DNA of 64,000 nucleotides, taken from positions 186,001-250,000 of the forward strand of contig JAUICL010000003.1 of NCBI GenBank assembly GCA_030427905.1. The letters run 5' to 3'. The position numbers were made by a program, and so were the translations under genes. The notes beneath the pieces are model-generated. The model did no database searches. It worked only from the letters and a program-made list of their open reading frames with translations, and was not told where the DNA came from. The DNA comes from Bacteroidia bacterium. GTDB lineage: Bacteria > Bacteroidota > Bacteroidia > Flavobacteriales_D > Cryomorphaceae. Each line of letters begins with the position of its first letter. Positions within the stretch are counted from its first letter, which is position 1. Positions 5,238-22,539 of the stretch are shown piece after piece.

Positions 5238-5264
5238 AAATGGATCGCACTAGACAAGTTAACT

Positions 5265-6695
5265 ATGACAGGACATTCGAACAGTTTTTTTCAGGAATCA
5301 AACCCAGTTTTGATTGAGAAGTTTGAGGACATGTTGAAGTTGAAAACCCGTTTTTTCTTCGATGTGGACGAGATAGAATTACTAGCAGATCACTTCCTGG
5401 AAAACGGCGATCATACCAGAGCAAATTTAGCCATCCAGCACGGACTGGAGCTACACCCGGCAAGCTCGGGAATCAAATTAAAGCAAGCACACGTACTCCT
5501 TCAGCTCAATGAGCCAAAGGCGGCGCTCAGAATTTTAAATGTATTAGAAGCTTCTGAGCCGACCAATACAGAGCTTCTGCTTTTCAAAGCAGTGGTGCAC
5601 CGAAACCTGAGCGATCACGAAGGCACGAAAGCTTGTTTGCTCAAGGCGCTTAAAGCAACGCCCGACAACAAAGAAGAGATTTACTTGGATCTAGCTTTTG
5701 AGCAAGAATTGGTAGAAGATTACAAAGGCGCCATTACCAGCCTAAAGCAATCGTTGGAAATAAATCCAGATCACGACGCCAGCCTTTTTGAGCTGGGATA
5801 TTGCTACGATATGGCTCAAGATTTGGAAAACGGAGCCGACTTTTTCATCTCCTATCTCGACAATTACCCGTACAACTTTGTAGCCTGGTACAATTTGGCC
5901 TTGTGCTACGAGAAACTCGGTCTTTTTGAAAAGGCCATTGAAACGGTAGGTTTTGCCATTGCTATCAAACCAGATTTCACCAACGCATACATCCTTAAAG
6001 GTAACATGTTCACTGCATGTGACATGGATGCTCTGGCGATAGAAGCTTATAGCGAAACCTTTGCCTACGATGCCGACAATCCCATGGTGCACACAGCTAT
6101 CGGTGAGTGTTTTGAGCGGATGTCAGACCACGTTTCGGCAGAGTACCACTACAAGCACGCTTTGTCTATCGACGAGCACTACGTAGACGCCCTGATGGGG
6201 TTAGGTGCCCTTCGCGAGTTTGAAGAGCGCAATACCGAAGCCATCGCCTACTACCGCGACGCTATCCAGTATGACAAAACCAACATGGACAATTGGCACA
6301 TTTATGCCGAACTCCTGGTTAAGGTGAATAATCTGGAAGAAGCCGAGAAGGCCTATATGCACATGACCATTGCCTTTCCCGATGATCCCGAGTCGTGGAT
6401 CGGTTTTGGAAAGGTAAAAGATGAGCTCTACGGCCCTGGTGAAGCCTTATTGACAGTAGAAGAAGGTTTGAAGATATTCGTTACCGAACGAGACCTGGAA
6501 CTCAACAGAATCATGTATCTCATTAAGGATGGACGAATGATGGAAGGGACTAATCTCTTGGCCCAATCCCTCTCTTCAGACCCATCTGGTGGTAAATATT
6601 TTGAGTCAATCTTTCCTAATGCCCTGCAAATTGCGAATATTGCAGGCTTGATTGACCTTTTTACCCAAGAGAACCCAAACGAAAATGAATTTTAA
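5265..6695 (+). CDS. Tetratricopeptide-repeat protein
   Basis: A roughly 476-residue protein made almost wholly of TPR helices, about eleven repeats, with recognisable units such as ELGYCYDMAQDLENGADFF and ALMGLGALREFEERNTEAI. It has no signal peptide, so it is probably a cytosolic scaffold. Start: the open frame reaches a TTG at 5235, but the ATG at 5265 fits better with the -7 box at 5230-5237. It opens a forward set of five genes and overlaps comA by 11 bases, which implies translational coupling. Its partner cannot be deduced from sequence; a role in organising the downstream enzymes is only a guess. Confidence 0.88.
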   Translation: MTGHSNSFFQESNPVLIEKFEDMLKLKTRFFFDVDEIELLADHFLENGDHTRANLAIQHGLELHPASSGIKLKQAHVLLQLNEPKAALRILNVLEASEPTNTELLLFKAVVHRNLSDHEGTKACLLKALKATPDNKEEIYLDLAFEQELVEDYKGAITSLKQSLEINPDHDASLFELGYCYDMAQDLENGADFFISYLDNYPYNFVAWYNLALCYEKLGLFEKAIETVGFAIAIKPDFTNAYILKGNMFTACDMDALAIEAYSETFAYDADNPMVHTAIGECFERMSDHVSAEYHYKHALSIDEHYVDALMGLGALREFEERNTEAIAYYRDAIQYDKTNMDNWHIYAELLVKVNNLEEAEKAYMHMTIAFPDDPESWIGFGKVKDELYGPGEALLTVEEGLKIFVTERDLELNRIMYLIKDGRMMEGTNLLAQSLSSDPSGGKYFESIFPNALQIANIAGLIDLFTQENPNENEF

Positions 6696-7470
6696 TCTCC
6701 CCTTTATTCCGGAGAGAACGGAACAACCGCGATCAAACGGATTGACTATGGTCATGGATAAGGGACTGAGCATGAACGGTGCTCGAAACCTTGTGGAAAC
6801 CAGTGGCCACCTGACCGACCTTATCAAACTCGGTTTTGGAACATCATACGTTTCGAGAAGTCTGAAAGAAAAAATCGACTTTTACCACTCGCAAAATTTG
6901 ATGGTATATCTGGGGGGAACCCTTTTTGAAGCCTTCATTGCTCGTGATATGTTCGATGAGTACCGCAAGCTACTCCGAGATCTAAATCTCGAAACGGTGG
7001 AAGTTTCGGACGGATCGATCCACATCCCACACGACAAGAAGTTAGAATACATCTCAGAACTGGCTAAGGACTTCCGCGTTCTATCAGAAGTAGGTTCGAA
7101 AGAAGAAGGAATCCTAATCGCTCCTGGAAAGTGGGTGAAAATGATGGAAACAGAGCTGGCTGCCGGTTCTTGGAAAGTCATAGCAGAAGCTCGCGAGAGT
7201 GGTAACGTGGGGATATACAGACCCAATGGAACGGCTCACGTTGTTTTGGTCAATAAGATCTTGGCGAAAGTAGCTGCCGAAAACATTCTTTGGGAAGCTC
7301 CACAAAAAGCCCAACAAGTTTGGTTTATCAAGCTTATCGGAGCCAATGTAAATCTTGGAAATATCGCACCGCATGATGTCATCCCTTGCGAAACCTTGAG
7401 AATAGGTTTAAGAGGTGACACGTTCTTCGAGCACCTTCCAAAGGAAATCGCAGACCAGATAAAACCGTAA
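6685..7470 (+). CDS. comA: Phosphosulfolactate synthase (ComA family)
   Basis: A 261-residue TIM-barrel protein of the ComA family, which adds sulfite to phosphoenolpyruvate to give (R)-2-phospho-3-sulfolactate, the first step of coenzyme M synthesis in methanogens. Recognisable blocks are the N-terminal GLTMVMDKGLS, the strand LMVYLGGTLFEAF, and the late segments GANVNLGNIAP and ETLRIGLRGDTF. The open frame allows a start at 6652, but the ATG at 6685 fits the family N-terminus. Bacteroidota do not make coenzyme M, so the product is more likely sulfolactate; a ComB-family phosphatase gene lies at 21817-22539. A rhodanese gene follows after 12 bases. Family assignment is confident, the physiological product is inferred. 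Confidence 0.88.
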   Translation: MNFNLPFIPERTEQPRSNGLTMVMDKGLSMNGARNLVETSGHLTDLIKLGFGTSYVSRSLKEKIDFYHSQNLMVYLGGTLFEAFIARDMFDEYRKLLRDLNLETVEVSDGSIHIPHDKKLEYISELAKDFRVLSEVGSKEEGILIAPGKWVKMMETELAAGSWKVIAEARESGNVGIYRPNGTAHVVLVNKILAKVAAENILWEAPQKAQQVWFIKLIGANVNLGNIAPHDVIPCETLRIGLRGDTFFEHLPKEIADQIKP

Positions 7471-7482
7471 TTACCCCCAGAG

Positions 7483-7800
7483 ATGAAATCTATGACCCCG
7501 AAAGAACTCAAGGAGAGACTGGACCGTGGAGAAGATATTCAAGTGATCGACATTCGTGAAGATCACGAAGTGGAATCGGGAAATATTGGCGGCTTGCACA
7601 TCCCTATGGCCGAAGTTATGAGCCGACTAGACGAAGTGAGAAAGGATTGTACCGTAGTGGTTCATTGCAAAAGCGGAAAACGCGCAACTGCAATGGTTTA
7701 CGCACTCGAAACCCAGTTTCAATTGACCAACGTTTTCAACCTAGAAGGTGGAATAGAAGCTTGGGCATCGGATATCGATCCTGAAATCGAAGTGTATTAA
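7483..7800 (+). CDS. Single-domain rhodanese-like protein
   Basis: A 105-residue rhodanese domain with the active-site loop HCKSGKRA, giving a catalytic cysteine near residue 64, and the N-terminal VIDIREDHEVESG typical of GlpE-like proteins. Such proteins carry sulfane sulfur as a cysteine persulfide. Its gene starts 12 bases after comA, and its stop shares one base with the start of the DUF368 gene, so it belongs to the operon. Delivery of sulfur for the ComA reaction is plausible but not shown; ComA uses sulfite, not a persulfide. Confidence 0.9.
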   Translation: MKSMTPKELKERLDRGEDIQVIDIREDHEVESGNIGGLHIPMAEVMSRLDEVRKDCTVVVHCKSGKRATAMVYALETQFQLTNVFNLEGGIEAWASDIDPEIEVY

Positions 7801-8741
7801 TGCGAAGTATTAAGGACTACGTCCTTCTTTACCTGAAGGGAATGGGCATGGGCGCAGCCGACGTTGTCCCTGGCGTTTCTGGCGGAACCATTGCTTTTAT
7901 TTCAGGGATTTACGAAGAGCTTATTGAATCGATAAACGCCTTCAATCTAAATAATCTCAAAAGACTATTTAGTGAAGGCTTTGGGTCATTTTGGAAGTCG
8001 ATAAACGGGAACTTTTTGGCCGTTCTGTTCGCAGGCGTATTTACCAGCATCCTTTCGCTTGCGAAGCTTATATCTATCTGCTTGGAGCATTACGGTATTG
8101 CCACCTGGTCGTTCTTTTTTGGGTTAGTCGTAGCGAGTATCCCACTGGTTTGGAAGCAAATCAAAGTCAAAACCTACTTCAATTTCCTTTTTGCGATTCT
8201 GGGAGCCCTAATCGCTTATTGGGTGATCAATATCCCGCCCACTCAAGATCCGGGATCGCTGTGGTATTTGGCACTTTCTGGAATGATTGCCATTTGCGCC
8301 ATGATTCTTCCGGGAATTTCGGGAAGCTTCCTACTAATCATTCTTGGATCGTACATTACCGTGCTCCAAGCCGTCAACGATCGCGATATAATCAAGGTCA
8401 TCACTTTTCTCTGTGGTGCTGGAGTAGGCCTGCTCTCATTTAGTCGACTTTTGAAGTGGCTTTTCGCCAAATACCACGACTTAACCGTTGCTACCCTTAC
8501 CGGTTTTCTGGTAGGTTCTCTGGCCAAAATTTGGCCTTGGAAGCACGTTTCTGAGTGGTTTATCAAACACGAAGGAGAAGTAGATGAAGAAAAAATTGCC
8601 CTTGTCACCGACAACGTGAGCCCATTCAGCTTCGCTGAGCTAACCGGACAAGAGTCCTTTTTGGGTATAGCATTGGCTATGGCGCTTATTGGATTTGCCG
8701 TGATTTGGGGCCTAGAACGAACGGCCAAACGCAAAGCATAA
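7800..8741 (+). CDS. DUF368 membrane protein, probable undecaprenyl-phosphate translocase (PopT-like)
   Basis: A 313-residue polytopic inner-membrane protein with about eight to ten membrane segments. It carries the duplicated DUF368 signatures GVSGGTIAFISGIYEEL near the N-terminus and LPGISGSFLLIILGSY in the second half. Members of this family have been shown to recycle undecaprenyl phosphate across the membrane for envelope polymer synthesis. It starts one base inside the rhodanese stop (TAATG) and ends directly against aroE, so all are read together. The operon partners give no direct envelope link, though polysaccharide genes lie elsewhere in the window. Confidence 0.88.
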   Translation: MRSIKDYVLLYLKGMGMGAADVVPGVSGGTIAFISGIYEELIESINAFNLNNLKRLFSEGFGSFWKSINGNFLAVLFAGVFTSILSLAKLISICLEHYGIATWSFFFGLVVASIPLVWKQIKVKTYFNFLFAILGALIAYWVINIPPTQDPGSLWYLALSGMIAICAMILPGISGSFLLIILGSYITVLQAVNDRDIIKVITFLCGAGVGLLSFSRLLKWLFAKYHDLTVATLTGFLVGSLAKIWPWKHVSEWFIKHEGEVDEEKIALVTDNVSPFSFAELTGQESFLGIALAMALIGFAVIWGLERTAKRKA

Positions 8742-9473
8742 ATGAAATCCTATGGACTCATAGGGACCAATCTCGCCCACTCCTTCTCGGTAGGCTACTT
8801 TGCAGATAAGTTTGAACGGCTTGACATTGATGCTAAGTATCAAAATCTAGACATTTCGACCCCAGCTGATGTGTCGCAACTCTTTGAGCGCGATTCAAGC
8901 TTAGTAGGCATCAATGTCACCATGCCCTTCAAGGAAACGGTCATTCCCTGCATCGACAAGCTGAGCAGTGACGCTCGAGCCATCGGCGCAGTGAATACCA
9001 TCAAACGCGAGGGGAAGGAACTTGTAGGCTACAATACCGACTGGATCGGATTTGGTCAAAGCATCAAGCCATTCCTCGCACACGGCATGGAAAAAGCTTT
9101 GATTTTGGGAACCGGTGGTAGCAGCAAAGCGGTAGCATACGCCTTGACGCGGCTGGGAATCGATGTGGTCTTCGCTACGAGGAATCCCGAGAAGGAAAAC
9201 CATTTGGCCTACTCGAGTATCAACGAATTTGCGATTGGGGTATTCAAACTCGTCGTAAACACTACACCACTAGGATCCCTAGCCCAGATTGACCAAGCAC
9301 CACCTATTCCTTATGAAGCCTTCACGGTAAATCACTTAGCCTTTGATTTGGTCTACAATCCTTCGGAGACTAAATTCTTGAAACTGGCCAAGGAACAAGG
9401 TGCAATTGCTGTGAACGGGCTGAGCATGCTGAAATTGCAAGCCGAAGCGAGTTGGAAAATCTGGAATAGCTAG
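8742..9473 (+). CDS. aroE: Shikimate dehydrogenase
   Basis: A 243-residue NADP-dependent enzyme that reduces 3-dehydroshikimate to shikimate in aromatic amino acid synthesis. Visible features are the substrate site AHSFS, the catalytic lysine in NVTMPFKE (K64), the catalytic aspartate in NTDWIGF (D100), and the dinucleotide loop LGTGGSSKA near 122-130. It is slightly short of the usual 270 residues but complete. It follows the DUF368 gene with no gap, and its TAG stop overlaps the TAG of the convergent SAM-hydrolase gene in a shared CTAG. Confidence 0.93.
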   Translation: MKSYGLIGTNLAHSFSVGYFADKFERLDIDAKYQNLDISTPADVSQLFERDSSLVGINVTMPFKETVIPCIDKLSSDARAIGAVNTIKREGKELVGYNTDWIGFGQSIKPFLAHGMEKALILGTGGSSKAVAYALTRLGIDVVFATRNPEKENHLAYSSINEFAIGVFKLVVNTTPLGSLAQIDQAPPIPYEAFTVNHLAFDLVYNPSETKFLKLAKEQGAIAVNGLSMLKLQAEASWKIWNS

Positions 9474-10270
9474 TAGCCCAGCTCCACTCTGATCATATCC
9501 TGGAGCTTGATTCCCAGGAGCCCAGCTGCTCCACCACCACTACCTTCTACCCCTCTATTGATGGCGATTTCAAGAAATCCTTCGCTGGTAAATAACGCTA
9601 CTACCTCGCCTTGTGGCACTTCCGAATACGTGCGCGAAATAGTGCTTAACACCGCGTCTGTTCTGTTCACCACTATTTGAAAATCTCGACCAGCAACGAA
9701 AGCATCAAACTGGTCTCTCGTGATATTTGTCACGACATTGCCGTAAGCATCGATGTATATGGCGATGCCTTTTAGTGCGTTGTGCTCGACAACAGGAATA
9801 AAAGTCGATCTGGTTTTAAAATGCTCTTCGCGATCGGCGAATGATTCCAAGTCTTCTCCCGCAAAAATGCGCGCCGCAAGTGGAATGAAAATGGTCTTGG
9901 TAGGAAAACTCAGGTCTTCATCACCGCGCATATTGACCCGATAAACACCATCTACTTTCGTTTCGCCAAAAAGCAGAGAGAAAAACCCATTATCGGTACC
10001 GATGAAATAGTGGCCCATGTGTTGGATCACCACATAAGGCGTGTCGTGGCCCCAGTCGGTCTCAACCCCTACTAGATGGATGGTACCTTCGGGAAATTCC
10101 TTCCAAACATTTTTCAACACAAAGGCAGCCTTTGCCATATCAAATGGTGGAATGTGATGCGAAATATCAACCCAGTTTAATTCTGGAACCGCCTTTAAAG
10201 CGGCGGCCTTCACCGCAGCGAGATAGTAGTCTCTCGTGCCGAGATCAGATGTTAGTGTCAGAATATTCAT
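9470..10270 (-). CDS. SAM hydrolase / SAM hydroxide adenosyltransferase (DUF62 family)
   Basis: A 266-residue member of the DUF62 family, which uses hydroxide to cleave S-adenosylmethionine to adenosine and methionine and is related to fluorinase and chlorinase. The N-terminus LTLTSDLGTRDYY carries the conserved aspartate; GTDNGFFSLL and the C-terminal domain (VVTNITRDQF) also fit. I see no halogenase-type loop insertion, so hydrolysis is the likely activity. The open frame extends to 10333, but the candidate promoter box at 10331-10338 and the family N-terminus favour the ATG at 10270. Confidence 0.87.
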   Translation of the reverse strand: MNILTLTSDLGTRDYYLAAVKAAALKAVPELNWVDISHHIPPFDMAKAAFVLKNVWKEFPEGTIHLVGVETDWGHDTPYVVIQHMGHYFIGTDNGFFSLLFGETKVDGVYRVNMRGDEDLSFPTKTIFIPLAARIFAGEDLESFADREEHFKTRSTFIPVVEHNALKGIAIYIDAYGNVVTNITRDQFDAFVAGRDFQIVVNRTDAVLSTISRTYSEVPQGEVVALFTSEGFLEIAINRGVEGSGGGAAGLLGIKLQDMIRVELGY

Positions 10271-10330
10271 CTTGGAAATCTCCCGTCTGTGGTGCGATAA
10301 AATCGAAGAAATATTGATTATTTTCGGCTT

Positions 10331-10338
10331 CAAAAGTA
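10331..10338 (-). promoter_or_regulatory. Candidate -7 box for the SAM hydrolase gene
   Basis: TACTTTTG on the minus strand matches TAnnTTTG about 60 bases before the ATG at 10270. It overlaps the longest possible start (10333), which argues for the shorter protein. No -33 TTG is seen at the expected distance. Confidence 0.4.
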
Positions 10339-10400
10339 AGTAAATTTCACCATCGGAAACCGAGCATTAAAATTCCCTTTACCCGAACAGAATTATCGTA

Positions 10401-11363
10401 TTGAGCGAACGAATTATCCCAATAGAATCAATTGATCCGAGAGAACTACTCGGTGTCAACAATGAGAAGTTTCACTTTATCTCTAAACACTTTCCCAAGC
10501 TGAAGCTCATTGCTCGTGGCAATATGGTGAAAGCCATTGGCGATGAAGACGAACTAGATATTTTTGAAGGAAAGATTCAGCTTTTTCTCGAACACCTCGA
10601 CAAGTACAACCGCCTGACGGAAGGAAACATCGAGCGTCTGCTAGTGAGCGATGCCAATGATGTACTAAAGGACAGCAAAGGTGGTGATGTGCTCGTGCAC
10701 GGTAATAGCGGGTTGCAAGTGAAGGCGCGCACAGCCAACCAGCGCAAGATGGTGGCCCTTTGCGATAAAAACGATATGGTTTTTGCCATTGGGCCAGCAG
10801 GTACAGGAAAAACCTACACAGCCGTGGCCTTGGCGGTAAGAGCATTGAAGCGGAAAGAAGTTCGGAAGATCATCTTGACACGCCCGGCGGTGGAAGCTGG
10901 CGAAAATCTCGGTTTTTTGCCCGGTGACTTGAAAGACAAACTCGATCCATATCTCCAACCCCTTTACGATGCGCTCCGCGATATGATTCCACCAGAGCGA
11001 CTGAGGGATTTTCTGGAAAGCGGAACGATACAAATTGCACCTTTGGCCTACATGCGTGGGCGCACGCTCGACAATGCATTTGTGATTCTCGACGAAGCGC
11101 AAAACGCTACCCACTCGCAGCTCAAGATGTTTTTGACCCGGATGGGGCAATCGGCTCGCTTTGTGATTACGGGCGATATGACGCAGATCGACCTACCGCG
11201 AAAGCAGCAAAGTGGTTTGGCTCGTGCTCTGAGTTACCTAGAAAAAATCAAGGGAATTGGGGTGATACACCTCAACGAGAAGGACGTGATCAGACACCGA
11301 CTCGTAAAGCAAATTATTCAAGCATTCGAAAAAGAGAAAGATAACCATGACAGTAATGAATGA
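10401..11363 (+). CDS. PhoH-like ATPase
   Basis: A 320-residue PhoH family P-loop ATPase, cytosolic and probably RNA-associated. An N-terminal KH-like region precedes the Walker A motif GPAGTGKT (131-138), and Walker B is VILDEAQ (228-234). GDMTQIDLP fits sensor I, and the C-terminal [12 protein letters not shown] is typical. It starts at TTG, which I recall as common for this family in Flavobacteriia; no ATG lies nearby in frame. Its end overlaps purC by 17 bases. Family members are linked to phosphate stress and rRNA processing; there is no local evidence for either. Confidence 0.92.
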
Positions 11364-12297
11364 GAAGGGAGAATTTAATTTCCCAGGCGTAGAGAACGTA
11401 TACCACGGTAAAGTCCGCGATGTCTACACCCTTCCCAACGATGTATTGGTCATGGTTGCGAGCGATCGCATCTCTGCTTTTGATGTAATTCTCCCGCGTA
11501 CTATTCCATTTAAGGGAGCCATTTTAAATCAGATTGCCGCCAAGTTTCTGAAAGCTACTGAAGACATCTGCCCCAACTGGTTGGTTGACACTCCAGCCCC
11601 TCAAGTGGCTATTGGCCACCGTTGCGAGCCTTTTAAGGTAGAGATGGTCATACGCGGATACCTGACAGGTCACGCATGGCGTACTTATAAATCTGGCGAG
11701 CGAATTCTTTGTGGTGTGGCTTTACCCGAAGGGATGAAGGAACACGATAAGTTTCCAGAGCCCATCATCACCCCGGCTACCAAGGCCGACGAAGGGCACG
11801 ATGAAGACATTTCGCGTGAAGATATCTTGGCTCAGGGAATCGTACCACAAGAACACTACGAAACCATGGAGCGATACACCCGCGAACTTTTTCAGCGCGG
11901 TACCGAAATGGCAGCCCAGAAGGGATTGATTCTAGTGGATACGAAGTATGAGTTTGGTCTGCGCGATGGCGAAGTGGTATTGATGGATGAAATCCACACA
12001 CCCGATTCTTCGCGGTATTTCTACGCCGATGGCTATGCCGAGCGACAAGCAAATGGCGAAAGCCAAAAACAGCTCTCAAAGGAGTTTGTAAGAGAGTGGT
12101 TGATCGAGAATGGTTTTCAAGGTAAAGATGGGCAGGAAGTCCCAGCGATGAGCGATGCGTGGGTAAATGAGATCACCCAGCGTTACATCGAGCTTTACGA
12201 GAATATAGTAGGTGAGCCCTTTGACAAGGGGGCATCCAGCGCCACACCCGAAGAGAGCATTGAAGCCACTCTTCAGGCATTGGCTAAGCTAGATTAA
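11347..12297 (+). CDS. purC: SAICAR synthetase (phosphoribosylaminoimidazole-succinocarboxamide synthase)
   Basis: A 316-residue enzyme that ligates aspartate to CAIR in purine synthesis, using [13 protein letters not shown] near the N-terminus is the family signature, followed by [11 protein letters not shown], the [14 protein letters not shown] block and [24 protein letters not shown] near 200-225. The length matches the long yeast-like and Bacteroidota form rather than the 240-residue E. coli enzyme. Start could be ATG 11347 or 11356. The 17-base overlap with phoH suggests coupled translation. Confidence 0.95.
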
Positions 12298-12303
12298 ATT
12301 CAT

Positions 12304-12603
12304 TTAGTGTGATCGTTGTTTTTCCTTCTCCTTGGTGAGTATCACCTTGAGACGGTCGAACGCTTGTTGAGCAGCAGAGATAAAACTCTCGGCAGCCTGA
12401 TCTACAAACACGTCTTTTCCAGGTAGGAAAATGCGCACTTCTACAGATTTATCTCCAGTAGGAGTTTCGCGAAGAGATTTGAGGTAAATATCGGCCTTAA
12501 CTATACGGTCGTTGTACTTCGTCAGCTTATCGAAGATCTCCCCTACATGGTTTATCAAATCTTGGCTCGCGTTGAAGTTTACAGGTTCTATTGTCTTGTC
12601 CAT
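12304..12603 (-). CDS. HPF/RaiA-family ribosome hibernation factor (short form)
   Basis: A 99-residue basic and acidic protein with the beta-alpha-beta-beta-beta-alpha pattern of the HPF/YfiA family: a first strand, a helix LINHVGEIFDKLTKYNDRI, strands containing KADIYLKSL and VEVRIFLPG, and a last helix SFISAAQQAFDRL. It ends in a lysine-rich tail. Short forms lack the C-terminal dimerisation domain of long HPF and bind idle 70S or 100S ribosomes. It is monocistronic and converges on purC with a 6-base gap. Confidence 0.82.
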   Translation of the reverse strand: MDKTIEPVNFNASQDLINHVGEIFDKLTKYNDRIVKADIYLKSLRETPTGDKSVEVRIFLPGKDVFVDQAAESFISAAQQAFDRLKVILTKEKEKQRSH

Positions 12604-12806
12604 ATGTTGGAATATGTTTTACTGGTTTCTACTCGTTAAGGTACGGATAAAAGGGGGAATTGGTTTGAGAAATAATAGGAAACTTGCATTTGAAATATCT
12701 CAGAAAAGCCATGCAAATTTCGCCGTCAAATCAATTTTTAGTAGATTGAATTTTAGATAGAATCGAGTGGGCTATCGAGATGATCGCTTGCATCAAAATT
12801 TAAGAT

Positions 12807-13184
12807 ATGGGACTATTCAACAAGATTTTAGGCAATGCTAGCCAGGTTTCTGGTGAGAAACTAGAAGAAAAGTACGGACGACTGCTGATGGATGAAGAAC
12901 AGGTAGAACTGGGATTTGAGTTGCTGAGAGACACTTTTATGTTTACGAATAAAAGATTAATTCTAATAGACGTTCAGGGGTTTACGGGCAGCAAGCGTGA
13001 ATACAAGTCTTTACCTTATAAGAGTATTTCGCGCTTTTCTCTCGAAACAGCCGGAACTTTTGATTTAGATGCAGAACTCAAAATATGGGTGTCTAGCGAA
13101 GAAACTCCATCCATCAGTAAGAAGTTCAATAAAAGTATTGATGTTTATGAAGTTCAGAAGTATCTGGCTGGAAAAGTCTCCTAG
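12807..13184 (+). CDS. Bacterial pleckstrin-homology (bPH) domain protein
   Basis: A 125-residue cytosolic protein that fits the bacterial PH-like domain (PF08000-type): an N-terminal helix MGLFNKILGNAS, an acidic stretch, then strands including LLRDTFMFTNKRLILIDVQG, SKREYKSLPYKSISRFS and a C-terminal helix. The TNKRLILID segment is the most characteristic part. Function of these domains is largely unknown. It opens a small set of three forward genes with no recognised function, in sequence that looks more AT-rich than its surroundings. Confidence 0.78.
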   Translation: MGLFNKILGNASQVSGEKLEEKYGRLLMDEEQVELGFELLRDTFMFTNKRLILIDVQGFTGSKREYKSLPYKSISRFSLETAGTFDLDAELKIWVSSEETPSISKKFNKSIDVYEVQKYLAGKVS

Positions 13185-13219
13185 CGACATAGTATCAAGC
13201 ATTTTATTTTCAGCGAGAC

Positions 13220-14966: not shown

Positions 14967-15014
14967 ACCCAAGTAATCCGCTTACATCACCTGAATTCAT
15001 AAGATTACGCATAC

Positions 15015-15650
15015 ATGACCTATTCCGAGTCGTCGTACTTTTTCGACTTTGATTCAGACGCTATACAGGCCCTTATCGAGCCATATCGAGATGCCCGCCT
15101 TTCTGACAAAGAGCGCGCTATTGCACTCTATGAGCGAGTGCGTGATGGATGGATTTACAACCCTTACCACATCAGCTTTTCAAAAGAGAATTACAGAGCC
15201 AGCAACTTGGTGAAAAGTGAAAGTGGAAACTGTGTCGAAAAATCGATCATATTGATTGCTGCCCTTCGCGGCTTGGGGATTCCCGCGCGCATCCATTTAG
15301 GAAAAGTGAAAAATCACATTGCCGTGGAGCGTTTGACCGAAAAGTTCGGGTCTAACGAGCTCACCCCACACGGTATGGTCAATGTATTTTTGAATGGGAA
15401 ATGGCTAAAGTGTTCACCAGCGTTTAACAGCACGCTTTGCGAGAAACTACACGTCGAACCGCTCGACTTCGATGGTGAAAACAACTCCTTTCTTCAAGCC
15501 TACAATAGTGATGGGAACCAATTTATGGAGTACACAGACGACTACGGTTTCTTCGATGATGTGCCTTTAGACTTTATGATCGAAAAGCTCGTTGAACACT
15601 ATCCCCACATCTTTGATACCGAAGAGAAAAAACCGGAATACAATCTCTAG
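15015..15650 (+). CDS. Transglutaminase-like domain protein
   Basis: A 211-residue cytosolic protein with a transglutaminase-like core. The nucleophile is in SGNCVEKS (C73), followed by the helix ILIAALRGLGIPARI and the histidine in THGMV-like TPHGMVNVF (H119). The third triad position, normally Asp in a W-x-x-x-D-P context, is occupied by Ser in GKWLKCSPAFN (S134). The SPAFN ending seems characteristic of a subfamily rather than damage. It could be a peptidase or acyltransferase on small substrates. It stands alone, 48 bases after the redoxin gene. Confidence 0.8.
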   Translation: MTYSESSYFFDFDSDAIQALIEPYRDARLSDKERAIALYERVRDGWIYNPYHISFSKENYRASNLVKSESGNCVEKSIILIAALRGLGIPARIHLGKVKNHIAVERLTEKFGSNELTPHGMVNVFLNGKWLKCSPAFNSTLCEKLHVEPLDFDGENNSFLQAYNSDGNQFMEYTDDYGFFDDVPLDFMIEKLVEHYPHIFDTEEKKPEYNL

Positions 15651-15973
15651 CCCGAATGAAGATTTCGTATGCCAGCGAGAAGAGGGGTGAAACCCTTGAA
15701 GGAAATGTGATCAAGCGGATTTCAGGGAGCACATTCATTTGAAATAGGCTAGAAGTAGCTACCGCTGGGGTTTTAATATCTGGTACCGTGATATCGGCAT
15801 TCCATGCAGTGTTCATAAGTAGAGTCACTTCCGTGTTGGCGCCCGTTTGAAATCAACCGCACCAGAATAACACCCTTCCCCCACCCTGTTTTTCAACCCA
15901 TTACCCCTTCAAAGGGGTGTCCCACACTTAATTTTTTAGTATTTTAATCACCGACCAACCAAACCCCGTGATT
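15651..15973. other. 323-base gap without a convincing gene
   Basis: No supported open frame. A minus-strand frame covering 15574-15828 has no recognisable product and overlaps the transglutaminase gene. The gap holds a short palindrome (ACCCCT-TCAA-AGGGGT at 15923-15938) and the string AACCCTTGAAGG at 15691-15702, both reminiscent of the REP-like palindromes at 18391 and 19204. Near 15942-15957 the sequence is AT-rich and probably holds the promoter of the lipoprotein gene. Confidence 0.4.
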
Positions 15974-16555
15974 ATGAAAAACATTTTGCTGTGTTTAATT
16001 TTAATGTCTTGTTGTTCCAATAAATCAGGCAATGGACAATTTGGCGGCTCCTTCCCACTCACGTACTACACCAGCCAAACTTTGACTGAAATCCTTGACC
16101 TTGAAAAGTGCAAAGGCATCAGAATCTATCCAGTCATTGACAAAGGAGGGAACCCTTCAACGATGATCGTCGGTATTGACGCCTCAGGGGCAGAATTGCC
16201 ATTCACTTTGGATCGGTCTGGTCCATACCAAATGTACACGGGCCTCCAAGACGTGAAACCTACAAGTACTGGATTAAACAAAAATCAAGCAAAAGAGCGG
16301 TGCGCGGCCTACACCCAATTGCGGGATGGGTTTGTTGTCGATTTCAGCGACGACATTATAAAATCTATGTTGGGAAATATTCCTGACGGAGGGATTGTGT
16401 TTTCCTATCTGGCTGAACAGAGCGGCAACTTTGAAGCACAAGCCTATAAGGTATCGAATGACAGACTAGAGGGCATGGGAGCTAAAAAACGGGGAGAGCC
16501 CTGCCCCACAGCCTGTGGTGTAGAATCCAACTATCTTTGCTTTCCAGGACGATAG
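15974..16555 (+). CDS. Small lipoprotein of unknown function
   Basis: A 193-residue protein with a short lipoprotein signal (lipobox LMSC), so it is probably anchored to a membrane facing the periplasm. The mature part is beta-rich, with phrases such as KGIRIYPVIDKGG and MIVGIDASGAELPF, and ends in a Cys-rich patch (GEPCPTACGVESNYLC) that may form disulfides. The GTG at 15968 is an alternative start. The gene ends 12 bases before the receptor cyclase, so the two are probably co-transcribed. No family is recognised; a sensory partnership with the cyclase is an inference. Confidence 0.72.
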   Translation: MKNILLCLILMSCCSNKSGNGQFGGSFPLTYYTSQTLTEILDLEKCKGIRIYPVIDKGGNPSTMIVGIDASGAELPFTLDRSGPYQMYTGLQDVKPTSTGLNKNQAKERCAAYTQLRDGFVVDFSDDIIKSMLGNIPDGGIVFSYLAEQSGNFEAQAYKVSNDRLEGMGAKKRGEPCPTACGVESNYLCFPGR

Positions 16556-16567
16556 TTTCTCATTGAA

Positions 16568-18403
16568 ATGAAAACTGAAGGCTATCTTCGACAATCGAGC
16601 CGGTTCAGAAATAATGTCCGTCTTCGGGGCATATTCCTGCTATTCTTTGTCACCGCACTCAGCCTGCGATGTCAGGTAAAGTCAGCACCGGAGCGATCGT
16701 GCTTAAACGTAGACTTGGAGCATAGCATTAGCCAGGGCGAAGATTTCCTTGATGCAAATAAACTAGACTCCGCCAGAGTGTGGCTCAAGCAGGCAGTAAG
16801 GTGCTCAAAGCAGGCAGGCGATGAAAAATCTGAAGCCAAATCTCTCCTTCTATTGGGAAAAGTAGAGTTTCGCGAACTCAGTCCTCGAGATACACCTACC
16901 AAACTTTTTCTCGAAAGCCTTTCCATCTATTCTGCCTTAGAAGATTCCATTGGCATGGCTATGGTAAACTTGCAGCTCGGGCTCGTAAACTACGAGATTC
17001 ACAATTTTCAAGGTGCCATCCCGTATTTCCAGTCTGTTTTAAATTCAAACCAAACGGAAGAGCACCTGCATGGATTGGCTCAATACCTTCTTGCCATTTC
17101 ATATTCTGAGCTCGGCTATTTTGGCGAAGCCAAAGAGATGTTTGAAATGGCTTCCAATGAAGTTCCTAGAGCAGACAGTCTATTCCACCTTCAGGTTTTG
17201 ACATTCAAAGGCAAGATGTACTCCAATAAAGGAGAACCAGAAGAAGCAATAAGGCTCTTTGAAGAAGCTTTTCGAGAATACTCCGCTTTAATTCATCAGG
17301 AAAAATTCACGCCAATCTACGCCTTCTTGGCCAAAGCCCATTTGCAGATGGGAAACCATCAGGCCGCTATTGAGTATGCCCGATATGCCTACCAGCACTC
17401 TCTGGGGCGAGGGGCTACGGCCTTATATCTGCGAGATGCAGAAGAAACACTCCACGAAGCATTCTATGCCCAAGAAAAGATCGACAGCGCCTACTTCTAC
17501 CTGAAGGCACTCAATGCTTTGGTGGAATCTACCATGAATGACAGGGTCCTGCAACGGCTCACAGAAATGAGCGGGCAATTCGAATATCAACAAAAGCTCA
17601 AAGCACAAGAGTCGAAAAGACAAATGGAAATGGCCTTGAATGAGAAAAAGTTAGAGCAAGAGCGTTTGCAACGAAACATATTGCTCGGTGGCTTTCTACT
17701 CGTCTTGGTATTTGCTGCGGTATTCTATCAACAACGCAAAAAAATAGCCCGTGAGCGTAATCGGTCTGAGTCCCTTCTACTCAATATTCTGCCCAAGAAC
17801 ATCGCCGCCGAACTTAAAGAACATGGCCGCGCAGAAGCCAAAGAGTACGAAAACGTGAGCATTCTTTTTACCGATTTTGTTGCATTCACTCAAGAGTCTG
17901 CGAGACTCAATGCCAAAGAACTCGTTGAAGAAATAAACGCTTGCTTCGAAGCATTTGACCAGATTACTACGCATCGTGGAATTGAGAAAATCAAAACGAT
18001 TGGTGACGCATATATGGCTGCAGGAGGGCTTGCCGGAACGAATGGTGACTCAGCAAAAAATACCGTTCTAGCCGCCATCGACATGCAGGACTACATGCGA
18101 AAGCGCGCTGAAGAAAAACGCTTCAAAAAAGAGCCCTTTTTCGAAATGCGCCTAGGAATACACACCGGTCCTGTAGTAGCCGGAATAGTCGGGGTAAAAA
18201 AGTTTCAATACGACGTGTGGGGTGATACGGTGAATACAGCCAACCGTTTGGAAAACACTGGACAAAAAGGTAAGGTTAACATCAGTAAAGCGACATACGA
18301 CCTCGTTAAAAACGAGCCAGAATTCAGCTTTGAAAACCGGGGCAAGGTCGTGGTAAAAGGCAAAGGTGAAATGGAGATGTGGTTTGTGAGTCATACCCTT
18401 TAA
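16568..18403 (+). CDS. TPR-containing class III adenylate cyclase (membrane receptor type)
   Basis: A 611-residue protein. A hydrophobic N-terminal segment (20-34) exports a TPR domain (about 45-330); a coiled coil (340-370) leads to a membrane segment (371-387) and a cytosolic cyclase domain (425-611). Metal aspartates are D436 (FTDF) and D480 (IGDAY). The substrate pair K476 (KIKTIGD) and D549 (QYDVWGD) indicates ATP, and the transition-state residues N556 and R560 are present. It should make cAMP in response to a periplasmic signal. Its final residues and TAA stop lie inside an imperfect palindrome shared with the RAYT gene, so its C-terminus may have been reshaped by that element. Confidence 0.9.
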   Translation: MKTEGYLRQSSRFRNNVRLRGIFLLFFVTALSLRCQVKSAPERSCLNVDLEHSISQGEDFLDANKLDSARVWLKQAVRCSKQAGDEKSEAKSLLLLGKVEFRELSPRDTPTKLFLESLSIYSALEDSIGMAMVNLQLGLVNYEIHNFQGAIPYFQSVLNSNQTEEHLHGLAQYLLAISYSELGYFGEAKEMFEMASNEVPRADSLFHLQVLTFKGKMYSNKGEPEEAIRLFEEAFREYSALIHQEKFTPIYAFLAKAHLQMGNHQAAIEYARYAYQHSLGRGATALYLRDAEETLHEAFYAQEKIDSAYFYLKALNALVESTMNDRVLQRLTEMSGQFEYQQKLKAQESKRQMEMALNEKKLEQERLQRNILLGGFLLVLVFAAVFYQQRKKIARERNRSESLLLNILPKNIAAELKEHGRAEAKEYENVSILFTDFVAFTQESARLNAKELVEEINACFEAFDQITTHRGIEKIKTIGDAYMAAGGLAGTNGDSAKNTVLAAIDMQDYMRKRAEEKRFKKEPFFEMRLGIHTGPVVAGIVGVKKFQYDVWGDTVNTANRLENTGQKGKVNISKATYDLVKNEPEFSFENRGKVVVKGKGEMEMWFVSHTL

Positions 18404-18429
18404 GGGTTCCAAACCCTTGATGGGTATGA
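18391..18429. repeat. REP-like imperfect palindrome at the 3' end of the RAYT gene
   Basis: Arms 18391-18408 and 18412-18429 pair at 16 of 18 positions around a CCA centre. The core TACCCnTnAAGGGTT is shared with the palindrome at 19204-19246. It contains the end of the cyclase gene and encodes the last nine residues of the transposase. Confidence 0.75.
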
Positions 18430-19038
18430 TTCATGACAATTTATAAAGTTGGACTCCCCACCAAAAGCTTCGATCACTGCTTCCTTTCGTACAGTAAAAG
18501 GCTCGTTTGATGTAAAAGCTCTGTACGAACTAAACTTCCAGTCGTGAAGATTATTTACAAGATGGGCTTCCACTGGATTTCGATGGATATAAACAATAAG
18601 ATTGCGCAAGTAGTTAATATCATTTACTCTTTTTCGCTTGTAAGGGTGCATCAATAAACTCCCCTTTCTTCCGTGCTGCTTGTTGAAAGCCTGAACATAA
18701 GAATTAAACAAATGAGAGAATTGCCTAGATAAATACGCTGATCTCTGAGCCTGCTTCTCAATTCCTTCAAGTTTTTTAAATCCTTGGATGCTTCGAGAAT
18801 TGGATAAATCAATAACTTCATCTACTTCCTTGACATCCTTTATTCTGATCAAAAAGTGAAAATGATTCGGCATGAGACAATAACAGAACGTTTCAGTAAA
18901 AGGAGTGATATATTTCTGGTACTTTTCTAAAAAGAAAGCATAGTTTCCTTTATTCAAGAAAACCTGTTCGCTCCCATTTGCCCTGTTGTAAACATGGTAC
19001 ACACCTCCGGGAATTAAAATGGCCTTTTTATCCTCCAT
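18400..19038 (-). CDS. REP-associated tyrosine transposase (RAYT, IS200-like Y1 family)
   Basis: A 212-residue Y1 HUH nuclease. With numbering from the longer frame (TTG at 19068), GGVYHVYNRA opens the domain, the HUH motif is H69-F-H71 within MPNHFHFLI, and the likely catalytic tyrosine is Y124 in FNSYVQAFNK, followed by HGRKGSLL. The ATG at 19038 is the natural start. RAYTs are domesticated single-copy relatives of IS200 that mobilise REP palindromes. Palindromes lie at both ends of this gene (18391-18429 and 19204-19246), and the C-terminus SYPSRVWNP is encoded by one of them. It reads antisense to the cyclase with a 4-base stop overlap. The gene looks intact. Confidence 0.9.
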   Translation of the reverse strand: MEDKKAILIPGGVYHVYNRANGSEQVFLNKGNYAFFLEKYQKYITPFTETFCYCLMPNHFHFLIRIKDVKEVDEVIDLSNSRSIQGFKKLEGIEKQAQRSAYLSRQFSHLFNSYVQAFNKQHGRKGSLLMHPYKRKRVNDINYLRNLIVYIHRNPVEAHLVNNLHDWKFSSYRAFTSNEPFTVRKEAVIEAFGGESNFINCHESYPSRVWNP

Positions 19039-19203
19039 GACAACTGAATTGAAGTGCTCCTCGCTCAATCCATCGCATTATAAAGCTTGAATATCAAATA
19101 CATCGATACACTCGAACATATCGATTTGAAGAGTTTAACTTCTAAAGCTATGAAATCCTGAGCCTTCTATTCACGAGTTGCGAGCATTCCCGTGAAAAAA
19201 CGG

Positions 19204-19246
19204 TGTCTTACCCTTCAAGGGTTCGGAACCCTTGAAGGGTAAGACA
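19204..19246. repeat. REP-like perfect palindrome upstream of the RAYT gene
   Basis: Two 21-base arms (19204-19224 and 19226-19246) are perfect complements around a single G. The right arm reads GAACCCTTGAAGGGTAAGAC from 19226. It lies 165 bases upstream of the RAYT start and shares its core with the palindrome at 18391-18429. Confidence 0.85.
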
Positions 19247-19315
19247 TATCCATTGTTATCAGCATCACGTAACTTCTAGAGCAAAAAATCCGTAAGGAAC
19301 TGAAAACTATGAAAC

Positions 19316-19636
19316 ATGCTACCAATCTACGACCAAAACAGATCATGGGATGCTTCAAAGCTTCTCTCCTTAGCCAAGCAAATTGAAGAAGGAATGGCGT
19401 GGGGCACAATTCTCTCGATGCATACCCCCGAAAGAATTCAGCTTGAAACAGCTAGCACCGAACTAGAACAAGCCATTTTGCTCGCTTCCTTCGGTAGTGA
19501 AAAAGCCAGGGAAGTCTGCCATATTGCAGAACAAAAGCTCCTAGAAAGCATCAAGCGGCTTCACGATTTTGTGTTAGCATGCTGCGATGGCGACACGAAA
19601 ATATTGCGAGACGCGGGTTTCCACTTTTCAAACTAG
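19316..19636 (+). CDS. Small helical protein of unknown function
   Basis: A 106-residue soluble protein, mostly alpha-helical with heptad-like helices (LSLAKQIEEG, ELEQAILLASFGSEKAREV, AEQKLLESIKRLHDFVLACC). No motif is recognised. It starts at ATG and is followed after 22 bases by a clear intrinsic terminator, which supports it as a real transcribed gene. It is bounded by the RAYT palindrome upstream and the reverse gcvT operon downstream. Confidence 0.6.
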   Translation: MLPIYDQNRSWDASKLLSLAKQIEEGMAWGTILSMHTPERIQLETASTELEQAILLASFGSEKAREVCHIAEQKLLESIKRLHDFVLACCDGDTKILRDAGFHFSN

Positions 19637-19658
19637 AAAACCCGCCCTTAGAAAATTG

Positions 19659-19687
19659 AAAACCCCGACATAAGCCGGGGTTTTCGT
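19659..19687 (+). terminator. Intrinsic terminator
   Basis: AAAACCCCG (19659-19667) and CGGGGTTTT (19676-19684) form a stem with an 8-base loop; the T-run follows. It ends transcription of the 106-residue gene and could also work in reverse for the DUF3298 operon, which ends about 150 bases away. Confidence 0.85.
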
Positions 19688-19836
19688 GTTCTTTGCTAAG
19701 CATGTAGACCTCACATACTCAACGATCTAAATGTTTAACCCAAATCCTTCTCTCTCCTCAAACTAACCAATAACCAATCAAAACAACCTCTCCTACCTCG
19801 TTGATTTGGGACCGCAAAGGTACGCAATACTAAGTG

Positions 19837-20625
19837 TTATTTTGACATTTTTTCGTCGAGGGAATCATAAGGCAAGACGAACACCGTTGGTCCTTCGGCA
19901 TACGATGCTACCTCATAGGAATTATAGAAGAAAAAGACGCCTTCTTTTGTAAGTGTCAAATTCTCAGGCAGAACGAATTGCCCATCAGGAAACATATACC
20001 CGCTATCATTGAGACTAGTGGTGTCTGAGATTCCGTGGAAATTTCGAAAATACCGCTCTCCTAATGATAGCAAGCCATCCCGATCATAGATATCTTCAAC
20101 CCTGATCTCCTCCCCATCTTTGAGACTCAAGGTTCGCGCGATCACAAACTGATTTGGATGCGCTCCCCCTGTATAAGAATCAGTGGTGATAATAAGCGCT
20201 ATAAAATCCTTTCCGAGCTCAGTCGATACCGAGTTTAGCTTGTAATACCAATATCCCTCACTATCCGGAAATTCCATCAAGAATAAATCGTGACCTTCAA
20301 TAAACGAAGCGCAAAGCGCCTGGTAATTCATGGTATCGATCTCCACATTCACTTCGCCCATGATCAATTCGTAGCAAAGTCTGTCGATGTAGTTGTTTAC
20401 CTCATCACGCACTTGGGCGTCTCCACCACGCAGCTTGGGCACATCAAGGGATATATACGTGCACTCATTTACGCAGTCTTCATCTGCTAAGTAGAAGGTG
20501 TCGCGCTCTAGCGTATATGGTTCTAATGGCTTCGACTGACTACGACTAGATTGATCTGAAGTACAACTAACTTGTACAACTGCGATTCCAGTTACTGCGA
20601 GCAAAAAGAGAATTTGTTTAATCAT
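19837..20625 (-). CDS. DUF3298 (RsiV-like) lipoprotein
   Basis: A 262-residue lipoprotein with signal MIKQILFLLAVTGIAV and lipobox VSC. The mature part fits the DUF4163-DUF3298 pair also found in RsiV: an N-terminal beta-domain (YISLDVPKLRGG, then a helix with RDEVNNYIDRL), the conserved TDSYTGGAHPN motif and the C-terminal EEIRVEDIYD and FFYNSYEVASYAEGP segments. RsiV-type domains bind lysozyme in some bacteria, but this protein has no anti-sigma domain. It overlaps the HEAT-repeat gene by 8 bases and is the last gene of the gcvT operon. Confidence 0.82.
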   Translation of the reverse strand: MIKQILFLLAVTGIAVVQVSCTSDQSSRSQSKPLEPYTLERDTFYLADEDCVNECTYISLDVPKLRGGDAQVRDEVNNYIDRLCYELIMGEVNVEIDTMNYQALCASFIEGHDLFLMEFPDSEGYWYYKLNSVSTELGKDFIALIITTDSYTGGAHPNQFVIARTLSLKDGEEIRVEDIYDRDGLLSLGERYFRNFHGISDTTSLNDSGYMFPDGQFVLPENLTLTKEGVFFFYNSYEVASYAEGPTVFVLPYDSLDEKMSK

Positions 20626-21151
20626 GGAGTCTGGATGAAATTACTTGTTTGAGTTCGTATACAAGGTCGGCGTGGGGTTCATCGCCGTGCTCATTGAGAA
20701 AATAATCGAGGTCGTCTGATGCATTCTGCCAGATTTCCTGATCGATCTGTGCTTCGATGTTCTCGATCACGGTCAGTGCCTCGAGCGAAACGAGGTAATC
20801 TCCTTTCATAGCTTGCTTGATCAAAACCGGGATATGATTGACCGGAAAAAGCCCTGCGTTCCAAAAAATGGAAAGGATGAGACCGCGTTCCTGCTCAAAC
20901 TCAACATCTTCGAGAGCAGTGATCAACTCAGGAATGGCCTTCTCGTCTTTCATCTCCTTTAGCACCTGCTCAATATCTGCTTGTAAGCCCTTATCCTGAG
21001 CCCACGCTTTATGCGCTCTGAGCATCGGCACTACCATCTGGGCATTTCCTTCCTTGGGAATGACCTTGATCGCCGACTGGACCACTTCGTGTTTTGACGA
21101 AAACAAATCGCCAATTAGCTTCTCGATTTTCTTATCCGCTGCTGTTCCCAT
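20618..21151 (-). CDS. HEAT-repeat-like protein
   Basis: A 177-residue soluble helical protein with HEAT-like units, for example MKDEKAIPELITALEDVEFEQERGL-type helices and FPVNHIPVLIKQAMKGDYLVSLEAL. It has no signal peptide and is probably a cytosolic adaptor. The ATG at 21151 follows the yggS stop by three bases; a GTG at 21157 would overlap that stop as GTGA. It overlaps the DUF3298 gene by 8 bases. Partner unknown. Confidence 0.78.
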   Translation of the reverse strand: MGTAADKKIEKLIGDLFSSKHEVVQSAIKVIPKEGNAQMVVPMLRAHKAWAQDKGLQADIEQVLKEMKDEKAIPELITALEDVEFEQERGLILSIFWNAGLFPVNHIPVLIKQAMKGDYLVSLEALTVIENIEAQIDQEIWQNASDDLDYFLNEHGDEPHADLVYELKQVISSRLHD

Positions 21152-21153
21152 AT

Positions 21154-21813
21154 TCACGATTTAAAAATTGCCGATCCGATTCGGATCATATTTGCTCCTT
21201 GACTTAGAGCAATTTTATAGTCTTGTGTCATTCCCATACTCAAGGTTCGAACTTCAAAATTCGCACCAGTGGAATGCTCCTTAAGCCAATCAAACACTTC
21301 TTTGGCTATAGCAAACTCATGGGCTACTTGCTCATTATCAGAAGTATTGGTAGCCATAGCCATCACACCTTCCACCTTCACAAATGGCCAGTTAGCAAAA
21401 CTACCTGACTCCACCATAGCTTTTAAATCAGAAGGGAGAAGTCCAAACTTGCTCTCTTCTTGCGCTATCCTGACCTGAAGCAAGCAAGGTATCTGTCGAT
21501 TTACCTTTGCCCCTTGCTTATTGATTTCAGCGAGCAGGCGCTCACTATCGCAGGCCTGTATCAAACTCACAAATGGAGCAATATACTTCACCTTATTGCG
21601 CTGTAGGTGACCTAAAAACTGCCATTCTATATCTTTGGGCATGGCTCCATATTTGGCTGTCAAGTCCTGAACTTTGTTTTCCCCAAAAACGCGATGACCA
21701 GCTTCGTAAGCCTCCATAATCTCTTCTTGTTCGCTGTATTTGGTAACGGCTACAAGTGTGGCTCCCTCGGGCAATGAGCCCTTGATATCTCTGAGGTTAC
21801 TGGCTATGGACAT
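21154..21813 (-). CDS. YggS/PLPBP family pyridoxal-phosphate homeostasis protein
   Basis: A 219-residue fold-type III PLP-binding protein with no catalytic activity known for the family. The N-terminal strand LVAVTKYSE carries the PLP lysine, followed by FGENKVQDL, WQFLGHLQRNK and the C-terminal phosphate-binding LSMGMTQDYKIAL and GANMIRIGSAIF. It controls intracellular PLP balance and amino and keto acid pools. It is encoded three bases after comB and tightly joined to the HEAT gene, with a PLP-linked context (glycine cleavage upstream). Confidence 0.93.
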   Translation of the reverse strand: MSIASNLRDIKGSLPEGATLVAVTKYSEQEEIMEAYEAGHRVFGENKVQDLTAKYGAMPKDIEWQFLGHLQRNKVKYIAPFVSLIQACDSERLLAEINKQGAKVNRQIPCLLQVRIAQEESKFGLLPSDLKAMVESGSFANWPFVKVEGVMAMATNTSDNEQVAHEFAIAKEVFDWLKEHSTGANFEVRTLSMGMTQDYKIALSQGANMIRIGSAIFKS

Positions 21814-21816
21814 AGA

Positions 21817-22539
21817 TTACATTTTGACCAGTGCACCATCGCGATACACCGGGATGACATCGGTCTGATTTGGCGTAAGACAGTACTTTATGTCTTCATT
21901 CAAATTCAGGTTTCGCAACCTTCTGCGATGCGATGATGCCTTCAAAAAGCCAAAGTAATTGTCCTTTGCCTTCTTGTACAAAAACATCGCGGCAATAGTC
22001 GAGTCTTCATCGCTGATAAACTCTCCGCTCTCCAAAAGCGCTTCGGTAATGGCACCTGCGCAGATGCTGTCTTCCAAATTGAACTTTCCTTGCCAGCCAG
22101 ATGCAAGAAGCAAGGTATCTTCCTTCAGCTCCTTCAAGTAAGCAATCACCGCATCGAGATTGATCAAGGAACCCACGATAACCTGATGCGTCTTGGCCGC
22201 CAGATTAATGGCCTTCGTTCCATTGGTTGTTGAAAGCACGAGTGTCTGCCCTTTGATGGAATCGTTCATATAGCTGTAGGGCGAATTTCCAAAATCAAAC
22301 CCTTCTACTATTTTTCCTTGGCGCTCTGCTCCCACCATGTAGCCTTTGTTACGGTACTCTTCGGCTTCTTCTATGGTCGACACGGGAATGAGTTTCTCGG
22401 CGCCATGTTCAAAGGCCGCACAGATGGCCGTGGTAGCTCTGAGCACATCAATTGCCACCACCACTTTATATTCTTGTTTGTAGAGGTCGAAGCTCTCAGG
22501 CGAGAAACACACTTCTACTCTTTTCTTTTCTTCCGACAT
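21817..22539 (-). CDS. comB: 2-phosphosulfolactate phosphatase (ComB family)
   Basis: A 240-residue ComB-family phosphatase. Recognisable blocks are VVAIDVLRATTAICAAF near the N-terminus, GAERQGKIVEGFDFGNSP, LVLSTTNGTKAI, ASGWQGKFNLEDSICAG and the C-terminal DVIPVYRDG. In methanogens it hydrolyses phosphosulfolactate made by ComA. A comA gene is present at 6685-7470, so both steps to sulfolactate are encoded here although unlinked. The ATG at 22539 follows the gcvT stop closely; a GTG at 22545 would overlap it as GTGA. No ComC-type dehydrogenase is seen in the window. Confidence 0.9.
   Translation of the reverse strand: MSEEKKRVEVCFSPESFDLYKQEYKVVVAIDVLRATTAICAAFEHGAEKLIPVSTIEEAEEYRNKGYMVGAERQGKIVEGFDFGNSPYSYMNDSIKGQTLVLSTTNGTKAINLAAKTHQVIVGSLINLDAVIAYLKELKEDTLLLASGWQGKFNLEDSICAGAITEALLESGEFISDEDSTIAAMFLYKKAKDNYFGFLKASSHRRRLRNLNLNEDIKYCLTPNQTDVIPVYRDGALVKM

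Follow-up and report, generated by a model that had tools for sequence, protein, structure and literature searches.

The enzymes ComA and ComB stand at the head of coenzyme M synthesis in methanogens, and homologues of both are encoded in the 64,000 nucleotide stretch of contig JAUICL010000003.1 analysed here (the window), whose host is not a methanogen. What does such a host make with them? The original prediction had read the pair as sulfolactate synthesis and had left the final product open. Comparison across genomes of the phylum makes cysteate, destined for capnine-type lipids, a better candidate than an excreted osmolyte, and we infer that ComA and ComB probably make (R)-sulfolactate, which is then oxidised and transaminated to cysteate for sulfonolipids. 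The two genes are:

6685..7470, + strand: comA, homologue of (2R)-phospho-3-sulfolactate synthase, 261 amino acids (PF02679, 283.9 bits; alignments with 1u83 and 1qwg)
21817..22539, - strand: comB, homologue of 2-phosphosulfolactate phosphatase, 240 amino acids (PF04029, 254.4 bits; alignment with 1vr0)

Both genes proved real, each encoding a full-length member of its family. The comA open reading frame (6652-7470, + strand) is read from the ATG at 6685, and its product covers the whole of the PF02679 profile (positions 1-243 of 243, 1.3e-84), over the curated cut-off of 25.2. Residues 4-248 align with the solved synthase 1u83 (167.4 bits), with which the stretches GGTLFE, SEVG, EARESG and ETLR-GLR-DTF are shared, and residues 17-247 align with a further solved synthase, 1qwg (142.8 bits; shared stretches GGTLFE, EAPQK-QQV-FI and ETLR-GLRGDTF). 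Among named ComA proteins the nearest share 78-81% identity with that of the window, Cryomorpha ignava standing at 79%; a ComA of 60% identity is found in a record titled Flavobacterium sp. SUN052 (L064), which may be a case of transfer or of misnaming. The comB open reading frame (21817-22545, - strand) has an inner ATG at 22539, and its product matches positions 3-225 of the 226 in PF04029 (8.8e-76, cut-off 26.4), with residues 7-237 aligning to 1vr0, a probable 2-phosphosulfolactate phosphatase. That the pair would make sulfolactate is well supported because of this family membership and because ComA and ComB occur together in the window's own class, as set out below; this part of the original prediction stands, with the qualification that both products miss some curated equivalog cut-offs.

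We next consider what the source genome of the window (G000) could do with a sulfonate. The original prediction had named a cysteate acyltransferase, a cysteate synthase and a ComC-like dehydrogenase as enzymes to look for, and the first of these is present. Twelve G000 proteins match PF00155, and one of them, CapB/SulA (L136:1435-2679:-, 415 amino acids), scores 579.9 bits to SulA 7u7h and 579.1 bits to the cysteate-C-fatty acyltransferase 28eh, against only 233.6 bits to serine palmitoyltransferase (Spt). According to the accessible text of PMC9304779, Lys281 sets SulA apart from Spt, which has alanine. A lysine is found at this site in G000 and in every CapB genome checked (65 of 108), while all 12 aligned paralogues from genomes without CapB carry A, S or N. 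Judged by its sequence, then, G000 is predicted to encode a cysteate-C-fatty acyltransferase that commits cysteate to sulfonolipids.

A known source for that cysteate was not found. Two kinds of synthase are credited with the cysteate of sulfonolipids in the accessible part of PMC10191378. One is CapA; the other, described for Alistipes and Odoribacter, is homologous to the archaeal cysteate synthase. Neither CapA (NF053679, E 1e-150 or better) nor the archaeal type (TIGR03844, E 1e-40 or better) has a match in G000. Its PF00291 proteins number two, a full-length cystathionine beta-synthase (CBS; 456 amino acids) and a relative of 1-aminocyclopropane-1-carboxylate deaminase, and the CBS is also the best CapA relative, reaching 478 bits against a cut-off of 600 in the CapA model. 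The genome is 99.77% complete, and since these two are its only PF00291 members, the family is not represented in it by any TrpB, threonine synthase or CysK that the search could find.

To map the distribution of ComA, ComB, Ldh_2, CapB (threshold 1e-100), CapA and TIGR03844, we searched one set of 296 genomes sampled from the phylum. ComA is present in 75 of them, and a control search found the family in Bacillus subtilis as well; its occurrence in a non-methanogen, which the original prediction had stressed, is thus real but not rare. Among the 108 genomes with CapB, 66 have ComA, 36 have CapA, none has both and six have neither, while the 188 genomes that lack CapB include nine with ComA and none with CapA. 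In the window's own class (73 genomes, 70 with CapB), ComA is found in 29 and CapA in 36, five CapB genomes have neither, and the three genomes without CapB likewise have neither. In family f24, which lies outside this class, 35 genomes have ComA, and exactly these have CapB. ComB agrees with ComA in 72 of the 73 own-class genomes (29 with both, 43 with neither, and one, G261, with ComB alone), and of the 29 ComA genomes in the class 26 have a long Ldh_2 (PF02615, at least 391 bits), which all 36 CapA genomes lack. TIGR03844 is confined to five genomes, all of family f30, of which none has ComA and none has CapB at the threshold, and the pairing of the Alistipes type is therefore not shown by this sample. 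It is the mutual exclusion of ComA and CapA, the recurrence of the ComA-CapB pairing in f24, and the way in which ComB and Ldh_2 follow ComA that lead us to read the pair as a source of cysteate for sulfonolipids.

The route could run as follows. ComA would join sulfite to phosphoenolpyruvate to give phosphosulfolactate, from which ComB would remove the phosphate to leave (R)-sulfolactate. A dehydrogenase, for which most ComA relatives of the own class have an Ldh_2/ComC-like candidate, would then yield sulfopyruvate, a general aminotransferase (G000 has several of class I/II) would convert this to L-cysteate, and CapB/SulA would combine cysteate with a fatty acyl chain to form 3-ketocapnine, the start of sulfonolipids. 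In effect the front half of the coenzyme M pathway of methanogens would replace a cysteate synthase. For the sulfite we can offer guesses at two suppliers, the rhodanese encoded after comA or the protein encoded at 58557-60014.

A number of observations weigh against this proposal. The most serious concerns sulfolactate oxidation, which in the window's own order and in f24 is the main hole in the argument. No PF02615 (Ldh_2/ComC-type) protein was found in G000, G041 or G045, the ComA genomes of the own order, and Ldh_2 is present in only three of the 35 f24 ComA genomes, where it is of a shorter kind; the search for a ComC-type dehydrogenase thus failed in the source genome and succeeded in 26 own-class ComA genomes outside its order. 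Two genomes without ComA, G031 and G096, carry a long Ldh_2 as well. G064, G158, G162 and G261, which are CapB genomes with neither ComA nor CapA, have only shorter and weaker forms. The nearest solved structure to L145, the one long Ldh_2 tested, is the malate dehydrogenase 1v9n (266.2 bits), with the L-sulfolactate dehydrogenase 2x06 at 204.0 bits; its best NCBIfam model is L-sulfolactate dehydrogenase, at 263.6 bits under a cut-off of 500. Since G017 and G214 have a long Ldh_2 and no Ldh_1 malate dehydrogenase, the long form may act as malate dehydrogenase there. For the oxidation step we also considered whether the own order has an additional malate dehydrogenase, and none was found, G000, G041 and G045 having one Ldh_1 each. 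The aroE gene beside comA was considered as a disguised sulfolactate dehydrogenase and judged an ordinary AroE: comparison with 2hk7 shows that it retains the NVT-PFK and NTDW stretches, which hold catalytic residues.

In a rival reading the pathway would stop at sulfolactate, which the cell would retain or release as an osmolyte or overflow product, with CapB receiving its cysteate in some other way. The Ldh_2 and Ldh_1 searches, which identified no dehydrogenase in the own order, are in keeping with this, as is the fact that Bacillus spores contain sulfolactate. So too are the nine ComA genomes without CapB at 1e-100 (five of f14, three of f36, and G200, whose ComA match is weak at 126.8 bits), which also count against the cysteate route, the more so as the CapB relatives that appear in these nine at a looser threshold (in f14 and f36) are without the diagnostic lysine as far as they are aligned. 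An end-product role does not account, however, for the fact that no CapB genome has ComA and CapA together, or for the long Ldh_2 that accompanies ComA and never CapA. We consider it unlikely.

The cysteate route must also be weighed against shared descent. In a tree of RpoB from 64 genomes, of which 57 belong to the 73 of the own class (built by a quick method and carrying long-branch warnings), ComA needs four changes within the class and CapA two, so that the many genomes amount to few events. The four ComA changes are read as losses because the tree genomes outside the class mostly have ComA. They fall in G002, where CapB has gone too; in G261, where CapB is kept; in family f8, with CapA in G037 and neither route in G064, G158, G162 and G178; and in the line of f12, f6 and f7, with CapB gone in f12 and CapA present in f6 and f7. 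The rule at these apparent losses, that CapB goes as well or CapA stands in, speaks for the cysteate route. In an independent-pairs test, ComB went with ComA in three of four pairs and Ldh_2 did so in three of four, but CapA stood opposite to ComA in only 0.6 of the four on average; four pairs cannot reach 0.05, and Fisher values for the co-occurrence of these genes ignore kinship. The six CapB genomes without either route (G064, G158, G162, G178, G254 and G261) are a further difficulty, G261 and the four f8 genomes being exceptions in which ComA appears to have been lost and CapB kept, with no CapA found. Second ComA copies were considered as well, and no hint of them was seen. Nor is there an operon joining the pathway genes, as judged by eye from gene starts at six Ldh_2 loci and two ComB loci, and around CapB in G000, G214, G261, G064, G158, G162 and G178. 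The exception to this lack of clustering is found in CapA genomes, where CapA lies directly beside CapB by coordinates (in G012, G029, G037, G053 and G103, among others).

Some of these exceptions have features of their own. G261 keeps gcvT-comB and CapB, but searches of it for ComA, CapA and the archaeal cysteate synthase gave nothing; its extra PF00291 protein was considered as a cysteate synthase and rejected, as it passes the threonine synthase cut-off of PRK08197. L232 and L240 of f8 were likewise set aside, their best models being threonine synthases (L240 over the cut-off, L232 below it). In G219 an AMP-ligase and an acyl carrier domain precede CapB in one fused protein, and the frames in G179 and G254 are similarly long. 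A glyoxalase-fold protein is encoded near CapB in G219 and G064 and, judged by a similar start, in G158 and G254; three of these four genomes have neither ComA nor CapA. These observations on CapB concern L402:4285-8897, L403:2145-6768, L304 and L305. A second, divergent ComA copy lies next to a gene of the MmgE/PrpD family in G266 (Pfam match), and similar gene starts point to a like arrangement in G282, G081 and G199 (L397, L398, L408 and L396 together).

The small number of independent events would also suit a reading in which a CBS-type enzyme or the oxidation of cysteine supplies cysteate, ComA and ComB serve an unrelated sulfonate or phospho-hydroxyacid role, and the shared distribution is simply inherited. 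CapA is related to CBS, as the score of the G000 enzyme with the CapA model illustrates, and a CBS side reaction could make cysteate, which again tells against the ComA/ComB route. So does the count for ComB, found in 162 of the 296 genomes and thus more than twice as frequent as ComA, from which another role for ComB in many genomes follows; where ComA is absent, comB lies beside gcvT there too (7/7 loci). However, two genomes with CapA, G021 and G029, were seen to have a CBS of like kind, of about 450 amino acids, and CBS therefore does not make CapA dispensable there. The coincidence of ComA with CapB, moreover, recurs outside the own class, in f24. Taken together, we regard a CBS-based supply as improbable.

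It is highly improbable that the ComA and ComB homologues use other substrates and make no sulfonate: the comA product falls under the equivalog cut-off of TIGR03849 (arch_ComA, a model named for archaea; 250.2 bits against 280) and the comB product under that of TIGR00298 (155.1 bits against 175.05) and of its best NCBIfam model, NF002054 (211 bits against 330), and the substrate is therefore formally open, but ComA aligns over nearly its full length with solved synthases, long stretches are kept, and it co-occurs with a sulfonate-using enzyme, CapB.

Returning to cysteate supply by ComA and ComB, its history can be sketched from the same distribution. On balance, and by a narrow lean, we favour the view that, as a supplier of cysteate for sulfonolipids in the phylum, ComA-ComB has the longer history and the wider spread, that CapA replaced it in the f6/f7 line and again in G037, and that phosphoenolpyruvate and sulfite are the real starting materials of cysteate in many sulfonolipid makers to which a CapA homologue has been ascribed.

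The proposed route borrows from several known systems. It shares with the coenzyme M front end of methanogens (ComA, ComB, ComC) the ComA and ComB families and, in 26 of 29 own-class ComA genomes, Ldh_2; it differs in that the host is not a methanogen, G000 lacks Ldh_2, and the onward route would lead to cysteate and lipid rather than to coenzyme M. The closest solved relative of the window ComA, 1u83, which we take to be a Bacillus structure, provides a link to the Bacillus-type enzyme, although there sulfolactate is held as the product whereas here a lipid precursor is proposed. With the capnine pathway CapA-CapB-CapC, as the accessible part of PMC10191378 describes it, it has in common the committing acyltransferase with its diagnostic lysine, whereas CapA, which makes cysteate from phosphoserine, is found in none of the 66 genomes with ComA and CapB. 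The archaeal-type synthase of Alistipes and Odoribacter (same source, same part) resembles it in being an alternative source of cysteate for SulA, and differs in its restriction to the five f30 genomes, none with ComA.

Sulfonolipids, CapB and the sulfolactate of Bacillus spores are already known; the comparison suggests that ComA/ComB would be a new supply route for sulfonolipids. Among the matches listed from the open-licence literature no link between ComA/ComB and sulfonolipids was found, and mention in subscription papers is possible. Phosphosulfolactate and sulfonolipid occur together in no paper of that literature; where sulfolactate is paired with sulfonolipid there, the accessible passages mean the plant lipid sulfoquinovosyldiacylglycerol (SQDG). 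A term search of PMC11631085 and PMC11334938 gave nothing on cysteate. Were the proposal true, phosphoenolpyruvate and sulfite would form a third source of cysteate, used by about 60% of the sampled CapB genomes (66/108), and pathway annotation would need correction. The ComA homologues of non-methanogens would gain a definite function, for which a knock-out phenotype could be sought; the accessible parts of PMC10191378 and PMC9304779 tie sulfonolipids to gliding motility and host effects. Labilibaculum euxinus, for which the accessible part of PMC12927429 gives abundant capnine lipids and a CapA homologue of just 32% identity as against 61% for CapB, is a case worth re-examining for its source of cysteate.

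Finally, we examined the settings of the two genes, whose neighbours in the window are:

5235..6695, + strand: protein with tetratricopeptide repeats (TPR), directly before comA (TPR models)
7483..7800, + strand: single-domain rhodanese, directly after comA (PF00581, 58.7 bits)
7800..8741, + strand: PopT-type polyprenyl-phosphate transporter, in the comA gene row (PF04018, 315.5 bits)
8742..9473, + strand: aroE, shikimate dehydrogenase, closing the comA gene row (below equivalog cut-offs; full-length alignment with 2hk7)
22542..23627, - strand: gcvT, aminomethyltransferase, upstream of comB (NF001567, 474 bits, cut-off 300)
21154..21813, - strand: YggS-type protein binding pyridoxal phosphate, after comB (TIGR00044, 161.9 bits, cut-off 106.25)

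It can be seen that comA stands with a rhodanese, followed by PopT and aroE, and comB between gcvT and the YggS gene, as had been described. The claim that the two are unlinked also holds: they lie about 14 kb apart on opposite strands, and comB is in none of the 80 named ComA loci, which extend up to 10 kb per side, many of them less. In those loci aroE occurs anywhere in 53 and PopT in 18. The most conserved neighbour is the TPR gene: in 81 of 97 ComA sources a member of its family stands immediately 5' of comA, in the same orientation, and a rhodanese lies directly 3' in 18 of the 97. Among the best-scoring 30 of the 162 ComB genomes, gcvT is within 1.5 kb of comB at 29 loci, G041 being the exception. 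As all seven ComA-less genomes among the 30 keep gcvT there, the gcvT-comB link is independent of ComA, and ComB-type phosphatases may have a role tied to gcvT. The gene orders around comA and comB are kept beyond chance.

Elsewhere in the window, 58557-60863 (- strand) encodes a sulfite exporter of the TauE/SafE type and, next to it, a metallo-beta-lactamase protein that contains two rhodanese stretches. The nearest sulfur-dioxygenase model for the latter, Blh, gives 65.4 bits, far below its cut-off of 625. The pair is likely to be a unit for handling sulfide or sulfite, and possibly a source of sulfite. A Crp-type regulator, recognised by eye, is encoded close by at 60903-61550. At 31719-38192 (+ strand) lies the gene for a protein of 2157 amino acids with 23 HYR repeats and a CHU_C type IX secretion signal.

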